Shown here piece after piece: positions 21,540 to 28,981 of a stretch of 64,000 nt of DNA (the first letter of the stretch is position 1; the number at the start of each line of letters is the position of its first letter). The stretch is from Spirosoma validum (GTDB lineage: Bacteria; Bacteroidota; Bacteroidia; Cytophagales; Spirosomataceae): assembly GCF_014699035.1 (NCBI RefSeq), contig NZ_JACXAA010000011.1, positions 62,001 through 126,000 on the forward strand, in the 5' to 3' direction. Under the pieces are notes generated by a model, which made no database searches, was not told the origin of the DNA, and saw nothing but the letters and a program-made list of their open reading frames with translations. A program made the position numbers and the translations under genes.

Positions 21540-22817
21540 TCACACAAAAAACGGTACGTCTTTGGGCGCGTATTTTTTCATACCTTCTTCATTGATTTCG
21601 ACCCCAATACCCGGTTTATTAGAAAGCGGGATAAACCCTTTTTCCACCATCGGGCCATCGAACGTAACGATATCTTTGAACATCGGCTCTTCATGAAAGT
21701 AAATTTGCCATTCCAGAATCAGGAAATTTGGTACCGATGCACACACATGACTCGACGCCATCGCTCCCAGATACGATGCTACCATATGCGGAGCAAACGG
21801 TACGTAATACAGATTGGCCAGGTTGGCAATACGTTGCGCTTCACCCAGTCCACCGGCTTTCTGTAAATCAGGCATGATGATATCGACAGCCCCGATTTCG
21901 AGCAGTTTCCGGAAGCCGTGTGCCAGATAATGGTTTTCGCCCGCGCAGATGGGCGTGTTCGACGCTTCCCGGATTTGCCGGTATGCTTCGGGGTTTTCGG
22001 CCGGAATGGGTTCTTCCAAAAACAGTAAGTTCAGCGGCTCCATCATCTTGGCTACCCGTCGCCCGGTCGTTACGTCGTAGCGGCCATGCATATCGACGCA
22101 GATGTCGATTTTCGGGCCAACGGCTTTGCGAACACCAGCAATCTGGTTATACATCCGCTCCAGCTCGCCCTGGCTGGCCGTCCAGTTGTAGGCGTCGTAT
22201 TTGTTAGGATCATTACGTTCGTCGATGTCGTATTTCACGGCCGTGAAGCCCATGTCGACCGCTTTTTTGGCGCTTTTCCCGAAGGCATCGGGACTGGTAT
22301 CGGTTTCGCGATACGCTCCCGTGTCACAATAGACCCGGATCTTGTCCCGAAACTTACCCCCCAGCAACTGGTAAACGGGCATGCCCAGTGCTTTACCGGT
22401 TAGGTCCCAGAGTGCCGTTTCAATCGCAGACAGTACAGAAATGTACATTCCGGACTGAGCCCCTTCGAAAAACCCGGATTTCCGAACGTCTTCAAACAAC
22501 CGATTGACGTTGAGCGGGCTTTTGCCTTTAATCCGCTCCCCCATCAGTTTCACCAGATGATACGTACCGACCGAGGCATCGACCGCTTCGCCACAGCCCC
22601 AGATGCCTTGGTTGGTATGAATCTTCACGAACAGGCTGTGTCCACCACGCGTGTAGCCACACTTTATGTCGGTGATTTTCAGATCCGAGGGAGCCGATGA
22701 CAAGGGCGCATTGTGAACGGCGGTTTCAAGTCCTTCGCCAAAACTGGACAGAGCACTGGCACTAAATACACTAGCTAAAGCGCCTTTGGTCAGAAAGGAA
22801 CGCCGGGAGGTTCTCAT
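21540..22817 (-). CDS. Enolase-superfamily (mandelate racemase/galactonate dehydratase-like) protein with Tat signal
   Basis: From ATG 22817 the protein has 425 residues and begins MRTSRRSFLTKGALAS, a twin-arginine signal; the upstream in-frame start is rejected for that reason. Motifs are VKYDIDERNDP (Lys region), DMHGRY (metal Asp, His), FLEEPIP (metal Glu), CAGENHYLAHGF (metal Glu) and FAPHMV (catalytic His). The DMHGRY/EEP/GEN/H pattern resembles galactonate dehydratase-like acid-sugar dehydratases. A Tat-exported member would act in the periplasm, which is uncommon. Neighbours suggest an aldonate or uronate-derived substrate; the precise reaction is unknown. Confidence 0.88.
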   Translation of the reverse strand: MRTSRRSFLTKGALASVFSASALSSFGEGLETAVHNAPLSSAPSDLKITDIKCGYTRGGHSLFVKIHTNQGIWGCGEAVDASVGTYHLVKLMGERIKGKSPLNVNRLFEDVRKSGFFEGAQSGMYISVLSAIETALWDLTGKALGMPVYQLLGGKFRDKIRVYCDTGAYRETDTSPDAFGKSAKKAVDMGFTAVKYDIDERNDPNKYDAYNWTASQGELERMYNQIAGVRKAVGPKIDICVDMHGRYDVTTGRRVAKMMEPLNLLFLEEPIPAENPEAYRQIREASNTPICAGENHYLAHGFRKLLEIGAVDIIMPDLQKAGGLGEAQRIANLANLYYVPFAPHMVASYLGAMASSHVCASVPNFLILEWQIYFHEEPMFKDIVTFDGPMVEKGFIPLSNKPGIGVEINEEGMKKYAPKDVPFFV

Positions 22818-22894
22818 AATTTTTGCAGTAAAAAGGTTACTGGAATTAACCACATCAGACCGCCGAAGCGGAGACACGGAGAAGTGGTTACTAT

Positions 22895-23839
22895 TTACCA
22901 GGTTCGGGTTTTCAAGTAGTCCTGAATTTGTTCTTTCGGAACGGGTAATTCATTGACGTGGGCATTTAGCCATTGAGAAAAGTCTTTTTCGATGTCGTCC
23001 GACCAGCGCGAGTCGATCTGGCCGGGCGTATATTTCTGCTCACGCAGACGCAGGTGGCCAAACATGTCGCGCAGGCGAATGATTTCCGAGGTTTTGACCA
23101 CTTTCTCAGCCAGGTGGGGCGGAATAAACGCTACGCCACCATCGCGACCCAGCACGATGTCGCCGGGCATCACCATCACTTTGCCAATACGTGTCGGACG
23201 GTTGATTCCTACCAGAGTCGTGTTCAGATCACCTTCGGGGTTGTGGTGCGACGGATGATAGCTTCGGAAGTACGATGTAAACCCGCCAATCTCTTTCAAG
23301 CCAGCTACGTCGCGAAGGGCGCCCTCGTAGACAATGCCATTGCCGGTTTTAGCGTAGATCGAATTGCCAAGGTTATCGCCAATGGTCGGGCCGTCTTCGT
23401 GCATACCAAACTGATCCACTACGTATACATCCCCTTTGACGAGCATGTCAATCGGCCAGGCATTCTGTGATTTTACCCGACCATCTTTGGTATGTCCTTT
23501 ATCATCCGTTACGCGGTGTACGTCGGGCCGCCCCGGCATGAACGTAGCGGTCAAAGCACGGCCAACCAGTACACTATCGGGGTTGATCGTCTGCCAGTCA
23601 CCTGCATACTGATAGCGGTACTTTTCGCCTTTCATCACCGCCCAGGCTTCCTCGTGCGTAACCAGTTTCATTCGCTTCAGAATGGCGTCCGGTACTTTGG
23701 GGCGTCCATCCGGGAAGCGTTCTCCTTTCCAGTCAGGCGTTAGAAAAATCAGTTCTTCTTTCGAAATCTGCTGCGCAACCGATGCTGTCGTTTGACTGAT
23801 CAGCGCCAGTATAGCTAGTAGTGTAAAGACTCGTTTCAT
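22895..23839 (-). CDS. RraA/HMG-aldolase-family protein, exported
   Basis: From ATG 23839 the protein has 314 residues with a Sec signal (MKRVFTLLAILALISQTTASVAQ). The core has VGRALTATFMPG, GDVYVVDQFG, NSIYAKTGNGIVYEGALRDVAGL and GDIVLGRDGGVAFIPPHLAEKV. This fits the RraA-like fold shared by RNase E inhibitor-like proteins and 4-hydroxy-4-methyl-2-oxoglutarate/oxaloacetate aldolases; the Arg-Asp pair in GALRDVAG is the active-site feature of the aldolases. Extra N- and C-terminal stretches make it longer than the roughly 160-240 residues usual for the family. It is the first gene of the uronate locus; a keto-acid retro-aldol role is inferred. Confidence 0.8.
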   Translation of the reverse strand: MKRVFTLLAILALISQTTASVAQQISKEELIFLTPDWKGERFPDGRPKVPDAILKRMKLVTHEEAWAVMKGEKYRYQYAGDWQTINPDSVLVGRALTATFMPGRPDVHRVTDDKGHTKDGRVKSQNAWPIDMLVKGDVYVVDQFGMHEDGPTIGDNLGNSIYAKTGNGIVYEGALRDVAGLKEIGGFTSYFRSYHPSHHNPEGDLNTTLVGINRPTRIGKVMVMPGDIVLGRDGGVAFIPPHLAEKVVKTSEIIRLRDMFGHLRLREQKYTPGQIDSRWSDDIEKDFSQWLNAHVNELPVPKEQIQDYLKTRTW

Positions 23840-24166
23840 CCTAAAATACGGGAACAAGAGGTTCAGATAGGTATGGCGAATAAGACGACCAACCGTTCAT
23901 TCTACCCTTCCGTAAGATGGATTAGTCGAATCGACAACCAACGTCAAGCCAGTAGCTGTTTATTTCGACAAATGAATGCGTAGTGTTGTTGCTATGCAGG
24001 ATGAGCGTGAAAGTACAATGCTTTTTTGCGCAGTCAGCTAGGAAAATCTAGCGATGTGTATAGTAAAATCAGCTTTGAGAAATCTCTCAACGTCAGGCGT
24101 GAGTATCCGAGGCCACGAAGCAAGCGAACTCAAACGGTTTCTAAAGTTTGTAGCGAAGAGGATGCT
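23840..24166. promoter_or_regulatory. Intergenic stretch between the uronate locus and the MNIO operon
   Basis: 327 bases with no supported gene. The part near 23840 should carry the promoter for the RraA-to-phosphatase series (minus strand); the part near 24166 is the 3' end of the MNIO operon. Short open frames here have no organised composition. Confidence 0.4.
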
Positions 24167-24988
24167 TTATACACGGGTAAAAATGCCTTTGGCGATGAAA
24201 TCTTTTCGCCACCTGCCCCAGGCATTCTCCAGCTGTGACGGATCGATCCGGTGATTATCCAAAAAGTATTGCTTCGTTTCCTGGATGGATCGGCCTGCTT
24301 TCAGACTTTTAAGGAATACGTATTGCATTGGCTCCAGCTCAAACAGTTTCAGGCGGTAATTCAGGCGGGCTACTGCCCAATAATTCTCTTTCGGAAAAGG
24401 CAATTCAGGTTTTCTCTGCTGGGTAAAGTCAAGATAGTACTGGCAAACGGGGTAGCGGTGATGAAACAGGTGGAATACAGGCGTCGACATCAACATGTCG
24501 TCTGAAATAGCTGCCGATTGAATGGACTCTTTCTCGTCCGCATACTCGTCGAAGATTACGGATAAATCGTACTCGAATTGAGCGAGTTCGATCATAAAAG
24601 AAGGCCAATCTTCCTGTTCCGAATCAGACTCGGGGCGCGTCTGTTCCAGAAAATGGGGAAATTGACTGCCCAGCGAATTTAGGGTATAGCTGTTGGAAGG
24701 ATAAGCTTCCAGATAATCGTCAGCAAATAGCTGAAACAGGTCGTTGCCCAGCGCATAAGCCAGCACACTGAACTGGTTTCGCATACACTCCCGCAATCGG
24801 GCAACATAACTTTGCTGATAGATCGCCAGATGCTGATATGCCGGCAAGTTTGAGGAAGCCTTGATGACGTCTTCCGGTTTTAGCCGATCTCCTGTTCCCC
24901 CCGGCGTTCTGTGCTCCCCGGCTGTCACAAGCATGGCCTGCATCCAGTTCTGGACCTGATTCAGCGAGTGTACGTTCTCTTCTGGCAT
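24167..24988 (-). CDS. DUF2063/HvfC-type MNIO partner protein
   Basis: 273 residues. The N-terminal part (about 12-115) matches the DUF2063 DNA-binding-like domain that accompanies DUF692 enzymes, with LAIYQQSYVARLRECMRNQ, a 'YAL-GNDLFQLFADDYLEAYP' stretch and LGSQFPHFLE. The second half (about 120-273) is a helical domain ending WGRWRKDFIAKGIF. In characterised systems (MbnC, TglI, BufC families) this partner recognises the precursor leader and presents it to the iron oxidase. It starts 27 bases after the DUF692 stop and closes the operon. Sequence identity to MbnC cannot be judged by eye. Confidence 0.82.
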   Translation of the reverse strand: MPEENVHSLNQVQNWMQAMLVTAGEHRTPGGTGDRLKPEDVIKASSNLPAYQHLAIYQQSYVARLRECMRNQFSVLAYALGNDLFQLFADDYLEAYPSNSYTLNSLGSQFPHFLEQTRPESDSEQEDWPSFMIELAQFEYDLSVIFDEYADEKESIQSAAISDDMLMSTPVFHLFHHRYPVCQYYLDFTQQRKPELPFPKENYWAVARLNYRLKLFELEPMQYVFLKSLKAGRSIQETKQYFLDNHRIDPSQLENAWGRWRKDFIAKGIFTRV

Positions 24989-25015
24989 TTTACTTCGCCG
25001 GTTTAGGCCATGCGC

Positions 25016-25963
25016 CTATCCGTTAATTTCATAGGATAGATTGGTCGTTAAAAAGCTAACAGGATTTGATATCGTTGACAAAGAGTTTCCCTGTTGATTC
25101 TTCAATTTCTGACCTTGGGCGAATTCCTGCATAAAATCCCGGGCTTTGAGCAATTCAGCATGATACGCGTCGAAATCCGGAATGTTGGCGTCCCATTCCA
25201 ATAACGTTGCCACGCCACCCGTTAATTGCCAGGCCAGGGCGAATAACTCCCATACGTCGTCAACCACTTTCCGGTCGTGGGTATCAATGATGTATTTTCC
25301 GCAGTGCTGATGACCGGCAATATGCATTTGAACGATACGCTCATGCGGCAATTGGCGAACGTAGTGAATCGGATCGAAGTCATTGTTGAAGCTCGACACA
25401 TACACGTTATTGACATCCAGCAGTAAGCCGCAACCGGTTTCTTCGGCCATGTACCGTAAAAAATCCCACTCGGGTATGGTCGATTGACAGAAAGTGAGAT
25501 ACGTACTAGGATTCTCGAAAACAACGGGCCGTCCCAGGAAATCCTGCACCTGATCAATACGTTTACAGATATGCATCAGTGATTCTTCTGTCAGCAGAAC
25601 GGGGAGAAGGTCATGCGTATTGAGACCATTGATGCCGGTCCAGCACAGATGATCACTAACCCACAACGGATTGACCTCAGCCGCCAACTGCTTTAATTTC
25701 CGTAGATAATCGTAATTGATAGGGTCTGTACTGCCAATTGAAAGCGAGACACCGTGCATGACAACGGGGTAACGCTCAGCAATTTGGCGTAATACATATC
25801 TGGGACGCCCACCCGAATCCATAAAGTTCTCAGAAATAACCTCGAACCAGTCTACGGCCGGACTCTGTTCCAGAATGTGATTAAAATGTTTACTTCTCAA
25901 ACCCAGGCCCAGGCCTGGGTTTGGAAGTTCACGTATCTGCTGCTGATAGGCTGAAGGGGTCAT
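25016..25963 (-). CDS. DUF692 / MNIO-family multinuclear iron oxidase
   Basis: 315 residues forming a TIM-barrel of the DUF692 family (MbnB, TglH, ChrH, BufB). Metal-ligand type motifs are in order: DWFEVISENFM (E41, E45), VMHGVSLSIGSTDP (H70), WVSDHLCW (D104, H105), VFENPSTYL (E150, N151), LLLDVNNVYVS (D183), VQMHIAGHQH (H214, H218) and LLEWDANIP (E256, D258). Such enzymes use two or three iron ions and O2 to remodel cysteines of peptide substrates, for example to oxazolone-thioamide or thiooxazole. The likely substrate is the Cys-rich protein encoded 9 bases upstream. The C-terminal 30 residues are low-complexity and variable. Confidence 0.93.
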   Translation of the reverse strand: MTPSAYQQQIRELPNPGLGLGLRSKHFNHILEQSPAVDWFEVISENFMDSGGRPRYVLRQIAERYPVVMHGVSLSIGSTDPINYDYLRKLKQLAAEVNPLWVSDHLCWTGINGLNTHDLLPVLLTEESLMHICKRIDQVQDFLGRPVVFENPSTYLTFCQSTIPEWDFLRYMAEETGCGLLLDVNNVYVSSFNNDFDPIHYVRQLPHERIVQMHIAGHQHCGKYIIDTHDRKVVDDVWELFALAWQLTGGVATLLEWDANIPDFDAYHAELLKARDFMQEFAQGQKLKNQQGNSLSTISNPVSFLTTNLSYEING

Positions 25964-25972
25964 AACAATCCG

Positions 25973-26575
25973 TTACACGTTTTCCGGGGTATCGTCCCGC
26001 TTACTTTTTTCACAGAGTTCTTCCGCGTTCCGGTTCGGGTCATTGAATCCGAATGAACAGTATTTATCGCCACTGTTGCCGCAGGAATCATAGCTACCCA
26101 TAATCGTTTCCAGCCATTTTTCCGGTGGTCCACAGGAATAAGGGGCGGGCGATACGTTCCTGTTGGCCGTCTTCATTCGTTCTTCGAACAGTTTACGGGC
26201 CAGCATCCAGGTACCTTTGCCTTTGTTGGGGCCCTGTGTGCTATAACGCTCCGCCTGTATAGGAACAGCGCAACTGCCTTGCCAGGCGCAATCGTTCGCA
26301 CCGGGTTTGGTCTGCTCTTCGCCGGACCCGTAAAGGCCACAACCGCCCTGGCCCCGGCAGTTGTTTAGCGTATGGCACGTATGAGCTTCAGCCGTAGCAC
26401 AATACCCGGCACCGGCACATGAATTCGTCCCAAATCGGTCGTGGCCTTTGCAGGCGTTAAGACCCATGCAGGCGTGTAATTCTAAAGGGGACGTAGTAGA
26501 AAGCGTTGGTGTGCTGGCAGAAGGAGAAGGGCCACTACACCCGTTGTTATCTAACGAATACTGGATAGATGCCAT
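25973..26575 (-). CDS. Cys-rich bufferin-like RiPP precursor (candidate MNIO substrate)
   Basis: 200 residues with 14 Cys: 13, 36, 42, 53, 59, 67, 73, 79, 96, 102, 148, 165, 173 and 188. Five pairs are spaced exactly six apart (36-42, 53-59, 67-73, 73-79, 96-102), i.e. C-x5-C. The segment HACMGLNACKG and the later GTNSCAG and GANDCAW resemble, from memory, the BufA2/DUF2282-like substrates of MNIO enzymes. Unlike bufferins it has no Sec signal peptide, and it has a roughly 95-residue C-terminal extension (Trp/Lys-rich, GPPEKWLETIMGSYDSCG) with four more Cys. It sits between the ferritin-like gene (39 bases) and the DUF692 gene (9 bases). Function inferred from context. Confidence 0.75.
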   Translation of the reverse strand: MASIQYSLDNNGCSGPSPSASTPTLSTTSPLELHACMGLNACKGHDRFGTNSCAGAGYCATAEAHTCHTLNNCRGQGGCGLYGSGEEQTKPGANDCAWQGSCAVPIQAERYSTQGPNKGKGTWMLARKLFEERMKTANRNVSPAPYSCGPPEKWLETIMGSYDSCGNSGDKYCSFGFNDPNRNAEELCEKSKRDDTPENV

Positions 26576-26614
26576 AGACTGGTCGACTTGGTTAGGAATG
26601 ACGGTGGTTTTGGC

Positions 26615-28021
26615 TTAAGCGAAAATTAACTTTCCAGCAGACGTACTCAAATACGGCTCCAGCGGTACGTCGGGCAGATCGTGAATACGTTGACCAATAC
26701 GTGTAGAAATAACATTCGTTGAGCCGATGGCCTGGTTATACAACTCAATCAATTGCGACTTGGGGCTGGAATCGACCCGAAATTCATAATTTTCGAAGGT
26801 CGGCGCAACCGTGTATTCCCGCCCATCCGGACCCGTATATTTCAACATAGTGATGTCTCCACACAGGCTATTCAGAATAAAAATCATGGTCTTATGAACG
26901 CCGAACATAAACAGCTCATACTGCGTATTGTCTTTCTGCCTGTAGCAACCTTCCACCATCACATACAGATACGAATAAACGGCATTGAGCAGAGTTGAGA
27001 CGCCCTGCACGCTGGCGGGATAATCGGCCGTTTTAGGATTGGTTGGCAGTCTAAGAACGAAATATTGACTGATATCAATGTCACCAATACCCAGCTCATT
27101 AAACTTGTTTGATAAGTCGACGTACTGGCAATAAATCTGGGCAAATTTCTCGAAATGAGATAGCTCTTCGTGGTCAGGATCATCATAATCAGCAGGTGTA
27201 ATCGCACAGCAATCTACCGATCCATCGGGATTCAACGACGTCGAGCCTTGGTTACCTTCGCCCTGTTCAACAATCGCATCGATGGCCCTGATCGCTGATG
27301 CCCGATCAACGACATGAATTAAATCAGCCCCATCATCTGCGTTGACAAATTTAGGCTTGTGTTGTTTATCATAGTAAACCGTGTCAATGTTATTCTGTGC
27401 GTAATAACCTCGACCAGGCACTAATTGGGCCGCTTCGGTATTGTACTGAAGATCGCAGTGGGCAATACATTGCTTGATTTTGTCATAAAATAACCCGATC
27501 GTAGCGTAAGGCAGCGTACGTACATTCGTCTGTTCCTCCTGAAGTGGTTTGGGACTTTCAATTTTCAGGAATGTTTTCAACTGATCCAGCGAAAAGGCAG
27601 CCCGGTTAATCGGAAAAGGAGGTATATGACCGGGTAGATACGCTGGCCATATGTCCGGTGATTTATTGACCAATTGAGGTTGCCCTGCCAGCGCCTGTTT
27701 CAGATTGGAAGACAAAGACAAGTGAAGCATTTCTTCGATAGCAACGCTCATAATAAGCGCGCCAACCTTATTGGCGTAAACCATGATCTCTGCCGATTTA
27801 TCAAGAGCAATCGTATCAGCTTCCTGTTGCGGTAAACCCTTTTTTACCAGGGCCTGAGAAAGTGCGTTACTGATAGCCGATTGGTCTGGCTCACGGTTAA
27901 GTGAATAATAGGTGTAGAGGTAAACCGGAATCGTAGCAATTTCAATTTCAATCGCCTGTTGAATCGCTTCTCCCAGATTTTGTGGAGTCACTTCGGCTTT
28001 CAGATCCAACTGTTGTTTCAT
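26615..28021 (-). CDS. Ferritin-like domain protein (PF12902/VioB-RebD N-domain type)
   Basis: 468 residues, no signal peptide. The N-terminal half is a ferritin-like four-helix bundle: EIEIATIPVYLYTYYSLN (Glu25/Glu27), a middle helix AEIMVYANKVGALI and SVAIEEMLHLSLSSNL with the EExxH metal motif at 96-100. The second half holds DHEELSHFEKFAQIY and helices typical of the iminophenyl-pyruvate dimer synthase-like group. That family catalyses radical or oxidative coupling of indole or imine intermediates in violacein-type pathways, but most members are uncharacterised. As first gene of the MNIO operon it may supply iron or oxidise the same precursor. This is an inference from position. Confidence 0.85.
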   Translation of the reverse strand: MKQQLDLKAEVTPQNLGEAIQQAIEIEIATIPVYLYTYYSLNREPDQSAISNALSQALVKKGLPQQEADTIALDKSAEIMVYANKVGALIMSVAIEEMLHLSLSSNLKQALAGQPQLVNKSPDIWPAYLPGHIPPFPINRAAFSLDQLKTFLKIESPKPLQEEQTNVRTLPYATIGLFYDKIKQCIAHCDLQYNTEAAQLVPGRGYYAQNNIDTVYYDKQHKPKFVNADDGADLIHVVDRASAIRAIDAIVEQGEGNQGSTSLNPDGSVDCCAITPADYDDPDHEELSHFEKFAQIYCQYVDLSNKFNELGIGDIDISQYFVLRLPTNPKTADYPASVQGVSTLLNAVYSYLYVMVEGCYRQKDNTQYELFMFGVHKTMIFILNSLCGDITMLKYTGPDGREYTVAPTFENYEFRVDSSPKSQLIELYNQAIGSTNVISTRIGQRIHDLPDVPLEPYLSTSAGKLIFA

Positions 28022-28031
28022 AAAGTTTATA

Positions 28032-28053
28032 GGGTTAGGGTGTAGGGTTAGGG
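28032..28053 (+). promoter_or_regulatory. Telomere-like G-quadruplex motif
   Basis: Four GGG runs at 28032, 28038, 28045 and 28051 on the plus strand, separated by TTA, TGTA and TTA. It lies 11-32 bases upstream of the ferritin-like start codon, on the template strand of that gene. The complementary mRNA leader is C-rich (repeated CCCTAA). Confidence 0.7.
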
Positions 28054-28223
28054 TATTGCACTTTTAGGTTAGGTTATCGTTTTCGATCAATGGCACCAGA
28101 GTTTATGAGTGTAATTCAGTAGATGGTTCAGAAGTAAAAAACTAGCCCGGCGCTGCCTACATCACTAACGCTATACTCTATACGTTTTCGAAATAATACT
28201 CATTACAGAAACAGACATCGATC

Positions 28224-28266
28224 TGTGTTTGTCTGGCCAGACAAACACATTATTCGGCCAGACAAA
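28224..28266. promoter_or_regulatory. Candidate operator: perfect 26-bp palindrome plus phased half-site
   Basis: 28224-28249 is a perfect palindrome centred on TGGCCA. Its right half-site GGCCAGACAAA (28235-28245) recurs as a direct repeat at 28256-28266, exactly 21 bp further on. A 21-bp direct repeat matches the two-half-site spacing of AraC-family operators, and an AraC-type gene is the next gene upstream. Rho-independent terminator function for that gene is the alternative, since the arms could form a hairpin. Confidence 0.6.
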
Positions 28267-28492: not shown

Positions 28493-28981
28493 TTATAACT
28501 TCTTAACTGTATAATCAGAAGGGCACTTTTTAAACTCTTTCGTAAAACATTTAGTAAAATAGGATAGATTTTCGAAACCTACCGCGTTTGCTGTATCAGA
28601 TACGGAATAGCCTTTTTGGAGTAAGTCGACCGCTTTGTTGAGCCGGTATAAACGTATCAGCTTGGTAGGGGGTAAGGTTGTCAGAGAGGTTGTTTTTCGA
28701 TGCAGTGTACGCGGGCAGACCGCCAGATCGCTGGCCAATTTTTCTACAGTGAAGTCGATTTGGGAGAGCCGCTGATCCAGCACCGTTACCAGTTGATGTA
28801 AAAAGGTATCAGGGACAAAAACTTTGTATTCCGTTTCATCAATTTCTGTTGCAAATCTACTGGATGTCGCATCGGCTATACTACTGAATCGTATGGGCTG
28901 AACACACGTTGGCGCACTGTCACTAAAGGCAAGGTGGACAATATCGAAAATACGGGTTGATTGATTAAGTACTTTGTTCAT
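28493..28981 (-). CDS. Short AraC-family transcriptional regulator
   Basis: 162 residues: an unassigned N-terminal part (1-65) and a full AraC DNA-binding domain with two helix-turn-helix units (about 78-97, FTVEKLASDLAVCPRTLHRK, and 126-149, ending VGFENLSYFTKCFTKEF), closing with KKCPSDYTVK. Typical AraC members carry a 150-200-residue ligand domain; this one has only a short N-terminus, so it may respond to another signal or be a stand-alone binder. It precedes the MNIO operon on the same strand, separated by the palindrome-containing leader, and is a good candidate regulator of it. Confidence 0.85.
   Translation of the reverse strand: MNKVLNQSTRIFDIVHLAFSDSAPTCVQPIRFSSIADATSSRFATEIDETEYKVFVPDTFLHQLVTVLDQRLSQIDFTVEKLASDLAVCPRTLHRKTTSLTTLPPTKLIRLYRLNKAVDLLQKGYSVSDTANAVGFENLSYFTKCFTKEFKKCPSDYTVKKL

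Follow-up and report, generated by a model that had tools for sequence, protein, structure and literature searches.

A four-gene operon of Spirosoma validum linking an MNIO and its DUF2063 partner, a cysteine-rich protein and a ferritin-like protein

MNIO proteins are iron enzymes of a rapidly expanding family, so far associated mainly with the making of metal-binding peptides and natural products. Their products are secreted peptides, buffering peptides or natural products; no MNIO pathway is known to us that makes a functional component of an enzyme. The subject here is a compact group of four genes in a 64,000-nucleotide stretch (the window) of Spirosoma validum, a member of the Bacteroidota with a genome of 8.2 Mb. 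The genes encode a ferritin-like protein (FER), a cysteine-rich protein (CYS), an MNIO of the DUF692 type and its DUF2063 partner (PME).

The closest described systems are bufferin-2 (BufA2-BufB-BufC; Buf_6/12Cys; Antoine et al. 2025, PMC12452194), the captophorins, which are 5-thiooxazole products of MNIO and PME-type 1 pairs (PMC12668002), and adjamnio-I (PMC12452194, Table 2), given there as 100 signal-less sequences of 122-293 aa with 8-21 Cys, preceding the MNIO. Working with a DUF2063 partner, HvfB and FonB turn Cys into 5-thiooxazole (PMC13419390, PMC12668002), for which a band near 305 nm is reported (PMC12668002). HvfB is reported to require a mixed-valent Fe(II)/Fe(III) di-iron centre, and the HvfC partner to enable this active state (PMC13419390). 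DoxX is common in bufferin clusters. According to PMC12452194, signal-less precursors tend to pair with PME-type 2 partners that lack the DUF2063 signature, MNIOs may modify proteins, and bufferin domains occur fused to other proteins, FER not being among those named.

The four genes of the window are as follows, each with an ATG start.

26615-28021, minus strand: FER, 468 aa, ferritin-like protein, PF12902
25973-26575, minus strand: CYS, 200 aa, 14 Cys, putative MNIO substrate
25016-25963, minus strand: MNIO (DUF692), 315 aa, PF05114, BufB-type maturase
24167-24988, minus strand: PME, 273 aa, DUF2063 (PF09836) MNIO partner, PME-type 1

Intergenic gaps are 39 nt (FER/CYS), 9 nt (CYS/MNIO) and 27 nt (MNIO/PME). 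An earlier note, made from the letters of the window, had described four minus-strand genes at 24167-28021 with these gaps; open reading frames (ORFs) and family scans agree with it in coordinates and families, and the short gaps on a single strand support one compact gene group. FER matches PF12902 well above the cut-off (E 1e-39, 137 bits against 22.3), as the ferritin-like assignment had supposed. MNIO is above the cut-offs of PF05114 (E 4e-108, 360.9 bits against 25) and of the NCBIfam BufB family NF050167 (361.7 bits against 310). PME is above that of PF09836 (61 bits against 27.2) and below that of NCBIfam HvfC (59 bits against 142). The proposed DUF692/DUF2063 pair is thus confirmed as a bufferin (BufB)-type pair, scoring above the BufB and DUF2063 cut-offs. 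CYS matched no Pfam family in the family scan and falls below the cut-off of NCBIfam BufA2 NF050166 (E 2.7e-4, 21.1 bits against 60).

The linkage of the four genes is conserved. A query with CYS only, over a collection stated to hold the genomes of 84,980 species, yielded 56 loci from 78 candidate stretches. MNIO is present in 56 of them, FER in 55 and PME in 54; all four genes are present in 54, in Bacteroidota, Pseudomonadota, Acidobacteriota and Actinomycetota. The 54 include some loci clipped by contig ends (L022, L028, L031) and L054, in which FER and MNIO are broken across frames. There are two exceptions. At L018 the contig stops shortly past MNIO. L053 (L091:7100-8371, Kitasatospora xanthocidica) is decayed: through deletions CYS has become continuous with MNIO, and PME with what is left of FER. 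Gene order is FER-CYS-MNIO-PME in 47 loci and CYS-MNIO-PME-FER in 7 actinomycete loci; the linkage has therefore outlasted a rearrangement. CYS immediately precedes MNIO wherever both are intact. FER as a regular part of the system, which the earlier note had itself made depend on conserved neighbourhoods, held in 54 of the 56 loci. FER as a chance neighbour was rejected by this linkage, by reciprocal profile searches and by fusions. Judged from these patterns, the four genes very probably act together, with CYS as the MNIO substrate.

In the reciprocal direction, the FER profile matched 6 of 296 Bacteroidota genomes, five of them strongly (E <= 2e-134), and in 5/5 of these CYS and MNIO adjoin FER. 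The CYS profile matched 5 genomes of an apparently identical 296-genome draw (the rows shown coincide), and these are the same five. Co-occurrence of CYS and close FER gives 5.5e-11 in Fisher's exact test, which does not allow for kinship among the genomes; two of the five belong to one genus, and the sample overlaps the CYS-anchored loci (L033 probably lies in G155). Among 219 Pseudomonadota genomes the FER profile matched 10, two strongly, both with CYS (one, G353, is the seed), and eight weakly; among 217 Actinomycetota it matched 7, two strongly, both with CYS (G352 is the seed), and five weakly. The CYS profile matched 2/346 Actinomycetota and 2/349 Pseudomonadota, one of each being the seed. 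The 13 weak-FER genomes and G266 have no CYS, MNIO or PME in the flanks seen (<1 to about 6 kb, some contigs being short), so most PF12902 proteins sampled lack an adjacent MNIO. Extra distant FER copies in G000, G222 and G352:C2 likewise have no CYS, MNIO or PME match in the flanks examined; further distant copies are present in G354, G355 and G356. By these profiles, the FER proteins linked to CYS seem to form a branch of their own within PF12902. Within the window's genus, 35 other genomes gave no real CYS match, a 25-bit match with stops in G026 being discounted. No relative was found in plasmid sequences or in viral contigs.

A tree built by a quick method from the four concatenated proteins, with 49 rows and without L018 and L045, nests two Pyrinomonadaceae bins within a mostly Bacteroidota set and splits seven Pseudomonadota into two separate clades. 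It fits transfer of the operon as one unit, short of proof, as bins can contain foreign contigs. Pairwise distances among the four proteins correlate (r 0.73-0.92; CYS-FER 0.885; 0/999 permutations as high), which would also be expected from shared ancestry alone.

CYS is a conserved cysteine-rich protein, 155-277 aa with 8-22 Cys over the 56 loci (start codons picked by script; 22 Cys in the single member L027). Eight Cys are invariant across 55 aligned sequences: C36, C42, C59, C67, C73, C79, C96 and C102. C53 is present in 48/55 rows and missing from seven actinomycete rows. Pairs 36/42, 53/59, 67/73, 73/79 and 96/102 are each six residues apart, i.e. Cx5C. K43, following C42, is invariant, as are the non-Cys residues W123, A126 and R127. 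Over core residues 32-135, pairwise identity averages 0.71 and does not fall below 0.485 (49 rows); for the whole proteins the means are 0.62 for MNIO, 0.58 for CYS, 0.45 for FER and 0.40 for PME (49 rows). A crude hydropathy scan (residues 1-45, Kyte-Doolittle mean over 10 residues, threshold 1.6) finds no signal-like N-terminus in the window's CYS; the threshold is reached by 3/55 family members. A long, Cys-rich, signal-less putative substrate had been proposed, and the length, the 14 Cys and the hydropathy scan support it. The view of CYS as a precursor peptide stands in part: the Cys-rich putative substrate is retained, but with its conserved core it behaves as a protein domain more than as a diversifying peptide. 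A search of PDB sequences with the CYS profile gave one chance-level match only (E 0.44).

BufA2 matches occur in 53/55 CYS proteins at E <= 1, the best at E 5.9e-7. A bufferin-2 precursor is characterised by a Sec signal peptide and six Cys in Cx5C triads. In a bufferin-2-like protein of another Bacteroidota genome, L071, itself below the BufA2 cut-off at 49 bits, the N-terminus is signal-like and the core reads HACKGMNECKGKGGCKTADNSCKGKNACKGKGGC. The CYS profile places C53, C59, C67, C73 and C79 on 5/6 of its Cys. Relationship of CYS to bufferin-2 is likely but weak, as this match reaches 22.4 bits with a bias of 17.4.

FER and CYS also occur in one chain. Three natural open frames carry such a fusion, each followed by MNIO and then PME.

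L045, Pleionea sediminis: 675 aa
G798: 744-aa frame, FER at 66-525, CYS at 556-684
L124:3642-7382, Saccharothrix carnea: 684-aa frame, very divergent, second locus

CYS is at the C-terminus of FER in the three fusions. G798 and the Pleionea fusion are 38.8% identical. The Saccharothrix carnea fusion is recognised by both profiles (FER iE 3e-15 to 5e-15, CYS iE 1e-6 to 2e-6) and lies apart from a separate unfused CYS-MNIO-PME-FER operon of the same organism (L047). Motifs EEMLH, DQGEG and DHYERF are visible in it by eye; the Glu three residues before the His of the last is not kept. As the CYS profile at E 1e-5 missed this fusion, the CYS counts are lower bounds. Among 17 FER frames checked, three Cx5C pairs occur only in the Saccharothrix carnea fusion and one pair in L129, with none in the rest. 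FER-CYS chains have arisen in at least two distant lineages, which argues that CYS works with FER. The earlier view of a free peptide shifts accordingly: the three fusions suggest a FER subunit or partner instead.

BufB is matched at E <= 1e-5 by 54/54 MNIO family members. Residues H70, H105, E150, H214, E256 and D258 are invariant in 54/54, and some of these probably bind iron. The closest solved chain is 3bww (E 2.8e-42). Mapped through it, N185, D227 and H229 correspond to N175, D242 and H244 of HvfB, reported there as essential (PMC13419390), and are invariant in 54/54. The position equivalent to the specificity site FonB Phe250/BufB2 Asp251 (PMC12668002) is G in 27, S in 11, D in 7, N in 6 and A in 3 (n=54), Asp being confined to seven actinomycetes. 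DUF2063 is matched at E <= 0.01 by 52/52 PME family members; the PME profile finds nothing in the PDB at E <= 0.01.

The window's genome also has a second MNIO, which is ChrH-like (L093:5133-6272; G000:C1, about 91486-92109) and scores 404.8 bits against NF050165, below the cut-off of 600. A chryseobasin-type system may thus be present in the genome as well.

PF12902 is matched at E <= 0.01 by 53/53 FER family members. E27, E96, E97, H100, E155, E255 and H289 are invariant in 53 rows, and E286 is near-invariant (52/53). These conserved Glu and His residues suggest an intact dimetal site; the conservation pattern points to E27, E97/H100, E255 and E286/H289 as candidate ligands, by likeness to other ferritin-fold sites. 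The AlphaFold model has a mean predicted local distance difference test score (pLDDT) of 88.6 and a predicted template modelling score (pTM) of 0.90. Foldseek on this model returns just two chains at E <= 0.001, both of 3hl1 (Caulobacter CC_0557, ferritin-like protein). In VIA-align 3hl1 scores Z 24.6, with 266 residues aligned. For likeness to iron-storage ferritins, defined by a 24-mer or 12-mer cage fold, the next rows shown, mostly ferritins and Dps proteins, are far below 3hl1 at Z 7.8-9.7. Stand-alone PF12902 proteins (CC_0557/3hl1; VioB and similar) share the fold and the metal-ligand motifs with FER; unlike FER, they have no CYS, MNIO or PME match in the flanking stretches sampled. A VioB-type iminophenylpyruvate dimer synthase was rejected as the identity of FER (TIGR04492, 13.3 bits against a cut-off of 1250).

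A second PF12902 gene of the same genome is stand-alone (L092:5605-6651; G000:C8, about 77661-78521): the surrounding 12 kb gave no match to CYS, PME or MNIO.

Compared with the described systems, the operon combines known kinds of parts. It resembles bufferin-2 (PMC12452194) in the Cx5C spacing and the Cys-Lys-Gly of CYS, and shares with it the gene order precursor-MNIO-DUF2063 and an MNIO above the BufB cut-off. It differs in a CYS of 155-277 aa without a Sec-type signal by hydropathy, with an additional Cx5C pair, a C-terminal extension and a BufA2 score below the cut-off, and in the presence of FER, sometimes fused. With the captophorins (PMC12668002) it shares the set of MNIO, PME-type 1 partner and Cys-rich substrate and the invariant Cys-Lys (C42-K43), NACKG being among the 5-mers tested there; it differs in the ferritin-like protein and in a specificity position that is mostly Gly or Ser.

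The ranges of length and Cys number described for adjamnio-I nearly coincide with those of CYS. CYS may overlap this published family, and its length and missing signal are for that reason not new in themselves. Adjamnio-I is reported with PME-type 2 partners; the partners here carry DUF2063 in 52/52. The CYS family is thus an exception to the reported pairing of signal-less precursors with PME-type 2 (PMC12452194). Fusion as such is not new either, since PMC12452194 reports fusions of bufferin domains.

Neither PMC12452194 nor PMC12668002 uses the word "ferritin" in its main text. Searches of open-licence PMC papers, supplements excluded, found nothing relevant that ties an MNIO or DUF692 protein to a ferritin-like protein, and no paper there brings together MNIO, a ferritin-like protein and ribosomally synthesised and post-translationally modified peptides. 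Co-mention of DUF692 and ferritin-like is confined there to a reference title (Caulobacter paper); the papers that combine MNIO with ferritin are unrelated by title, and among the matches listed for pairs of bufferins, ferritin, MNIO and DUF692 only two medical papers contain "ferritin". Dataset S1 of PMC12668002, described as covering >24,000 MNIO-PME1 loci, may well contain CYS-FER loci unremarked. An undescribed combination had been suspected at the outset: the ferritin-like association was not found in the literature searched, and the long signal-less precursor is perhaps already listed as adjamnio-I. What appears new is that MNIO, PME-type 1 and a bufferin-2-like protein lacking a signal regularly come with a ferritin-like partner.

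The evidence tips slightly towards a maturation operon for a cytosolic metalloprotein, chemistry and metal being the conjectural part. PME, as a DUF2063-type partner with a recognition-element (RRE-type) role, would bind CYS and present it to MNIO. The di-iron centre of MNIO would use O2 to oxidise some of the eight conserved Cys in the Cx5C core. By analogy with BufB, HvfB and FonB and with bufferins and captophorins, the modified Cys would most likely be 5-thiooxazoles, and thiooxazole is the probable product of MNIO and PME on CYS. Matured CYS would be neither exported nor released and would be kept in the cytosol as a partner or subunit of FER. A cytosolic location is proposed because CYS has no signal-like N-terminus and because no constant fifth gene appears in the 25 largest clusters of 583 flanking ORFs. 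That CYS remains a subunit or stable partner of FER has odds a little better than even, from the fusions and the linkage. FER would have the ferritin fold and a dimetal site, probably of Fe; CYS would supply FER with a metal site (Cu or Fe) of modified Cys, or with a redox group. The full reading is tentative, with a probability of roughly 0.35: a protein-derived cofactor built by MNIO, in which a thiooxazole (or related) Cu or mixed-metal site on CYS works with the dimetal site of FER, in separate or fused chains. If true, the maturation of protein cofactors would join the known uses of MNIO chemistry, by way of a cytosolic bufferin-2-like domain tied or fused to a ferritin-like dimetal protein. 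The operon hints at a novel type of protein, one that handles metal or uses oxygen and is made by an enzyme already known for modifying peptides. The system would also offer a way to the function of PF12902, a ferritin-like family of which one structure (3hl1) is solved.

Borosins are precursor-enzyme fusions in which the enzyme modifies its own tail. The main rival to the maturation-operon reading is a FER of this kind, a second tailoring enzyme whose dimetal centre would further oxidise CYS before or after MNIO, or its own C-terminal tail in the fusions, the product being a modified protein or peptide with a role of its own. This is possible and on the doubtful side. It fits the conserved putative metal ligands, the EEMLH, DQGEG and DHYERF motifs retained in the divergent fusion, and the place of CYS behind FER in the three fusions; since such self-modifying fusions exist, fusion falls short of proving a subunit. 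The strongly conserved CYS core (0.71 mean identity) is unlike diversifying core peptides, and no constant peptidase or exporter appears among the flanking clusters printed (clustering only, with no family-level search), both of which speak against tailoring by FER.

Supply or oxidation of iron by FER for the mixed-valent MNIO centre, with CYS as a plain cytosolic copper buffer of the bufferin kind, is improbable. HvfB needs such a centre (PMC13419390), and FER is ferritin-like by family and fold; in HvfBC, however, it is HvfC that is credited with enabling the active state (PMC13419390), the Buf2-MNIO locus L071 has no FER in the roughly 3 kb seen, and the fusions connect FER to CYS, not to MNIO. 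Hardly more credible is a CYS that is a structural Cys or zinc-type domain of FER and no MNIO substrate, in which case MNIO would have another target. In favour are the length and conservation of CYS, its ability to be fused to FER, and the invariant W123, A126 and R127. Against this stand its position directly before MNIO, the bufferin-2-like Cys-Lys-Gly and Cx5C spacing, and the flanking clusters, which hold no other constant candidate substrate.

Several observations weigh against the maturation-operon reading. The likeness of CYS to BufA2 is weak and owes something to biased composition. FER is placed after PME, not beside CYS, in the operons of actinomycetes. A MacB/FtsX-type permease lies 110 nt upstream of the operon at L017, and the finding that no exporter, peptidase or DoxX gene is constant comes from ORF clustering alone, with no family-level search made. 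The CYS part of the structure model of a natural fusion is of low confidence (pLDDT about 30-74 in 10-residue blocks), so that no docking or fold is claimed; a docking read from this model was dropped as unreliable.

Flanking genes are variable. The largest flanking cluster is sensor-kinase-like (representative PF07494/PF02518) and is found at 15 loci at scattered distances. Members of the remaining clusters come chiefly from Mucilaginibacter together with unnamed Bacteroidetes bins, or from Kordia. A THAP4-like heme-binding-barrel gene adjoins the operon in 4/56 loci of two phyla (L017, L040, L046 and L050); the likeness at L040 is below the cut-off (E 1.7e-4), and the L046 member has no family and is on the opposite strand. 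An aminotransferase class I/II gene (PF00155 in L051) is within <=5 kb of the operon at L021, L041 and L051, again in two phyla.

Upstream of FER lie a palindrome and a copy of its half.

28224-28249, no strand: candidate operator, perfect 26-bp palindrome TGTGTTTGTCTGGCCAGACAAACACA, 202 nt ahead of FER
28256-28266: half-site copy GGCCAGACAAA, 11-nt repeat of the palindrome half

The 18-bp centre of the palindrome has one site in the genome at <=2 mismatches, and a reversed control pattern likewise one. In a rough, poor alignment with the upstream regions of L001, L003 and L052, neither the palindrome nor a shared motif was seen. Promoter and terminator scans of the operon are not above shuffles (5 against 8.2; 4 against 5.0). 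Two 12-nt, telomere-like copies of TAGGGTTAGGGT lie at 28030-28054, directly before the FER start. An AraC-type regulator gene is located at 28493-28981, minus strand, 471 nt upstream of FER, and is a possible candidate regulator of the operon. Downstream, 21540-23857 holds an enolase/mandelate-racemase-like gene (by eye) and a RraA-like gene (PF03737), both apparently unrelated to the operon.

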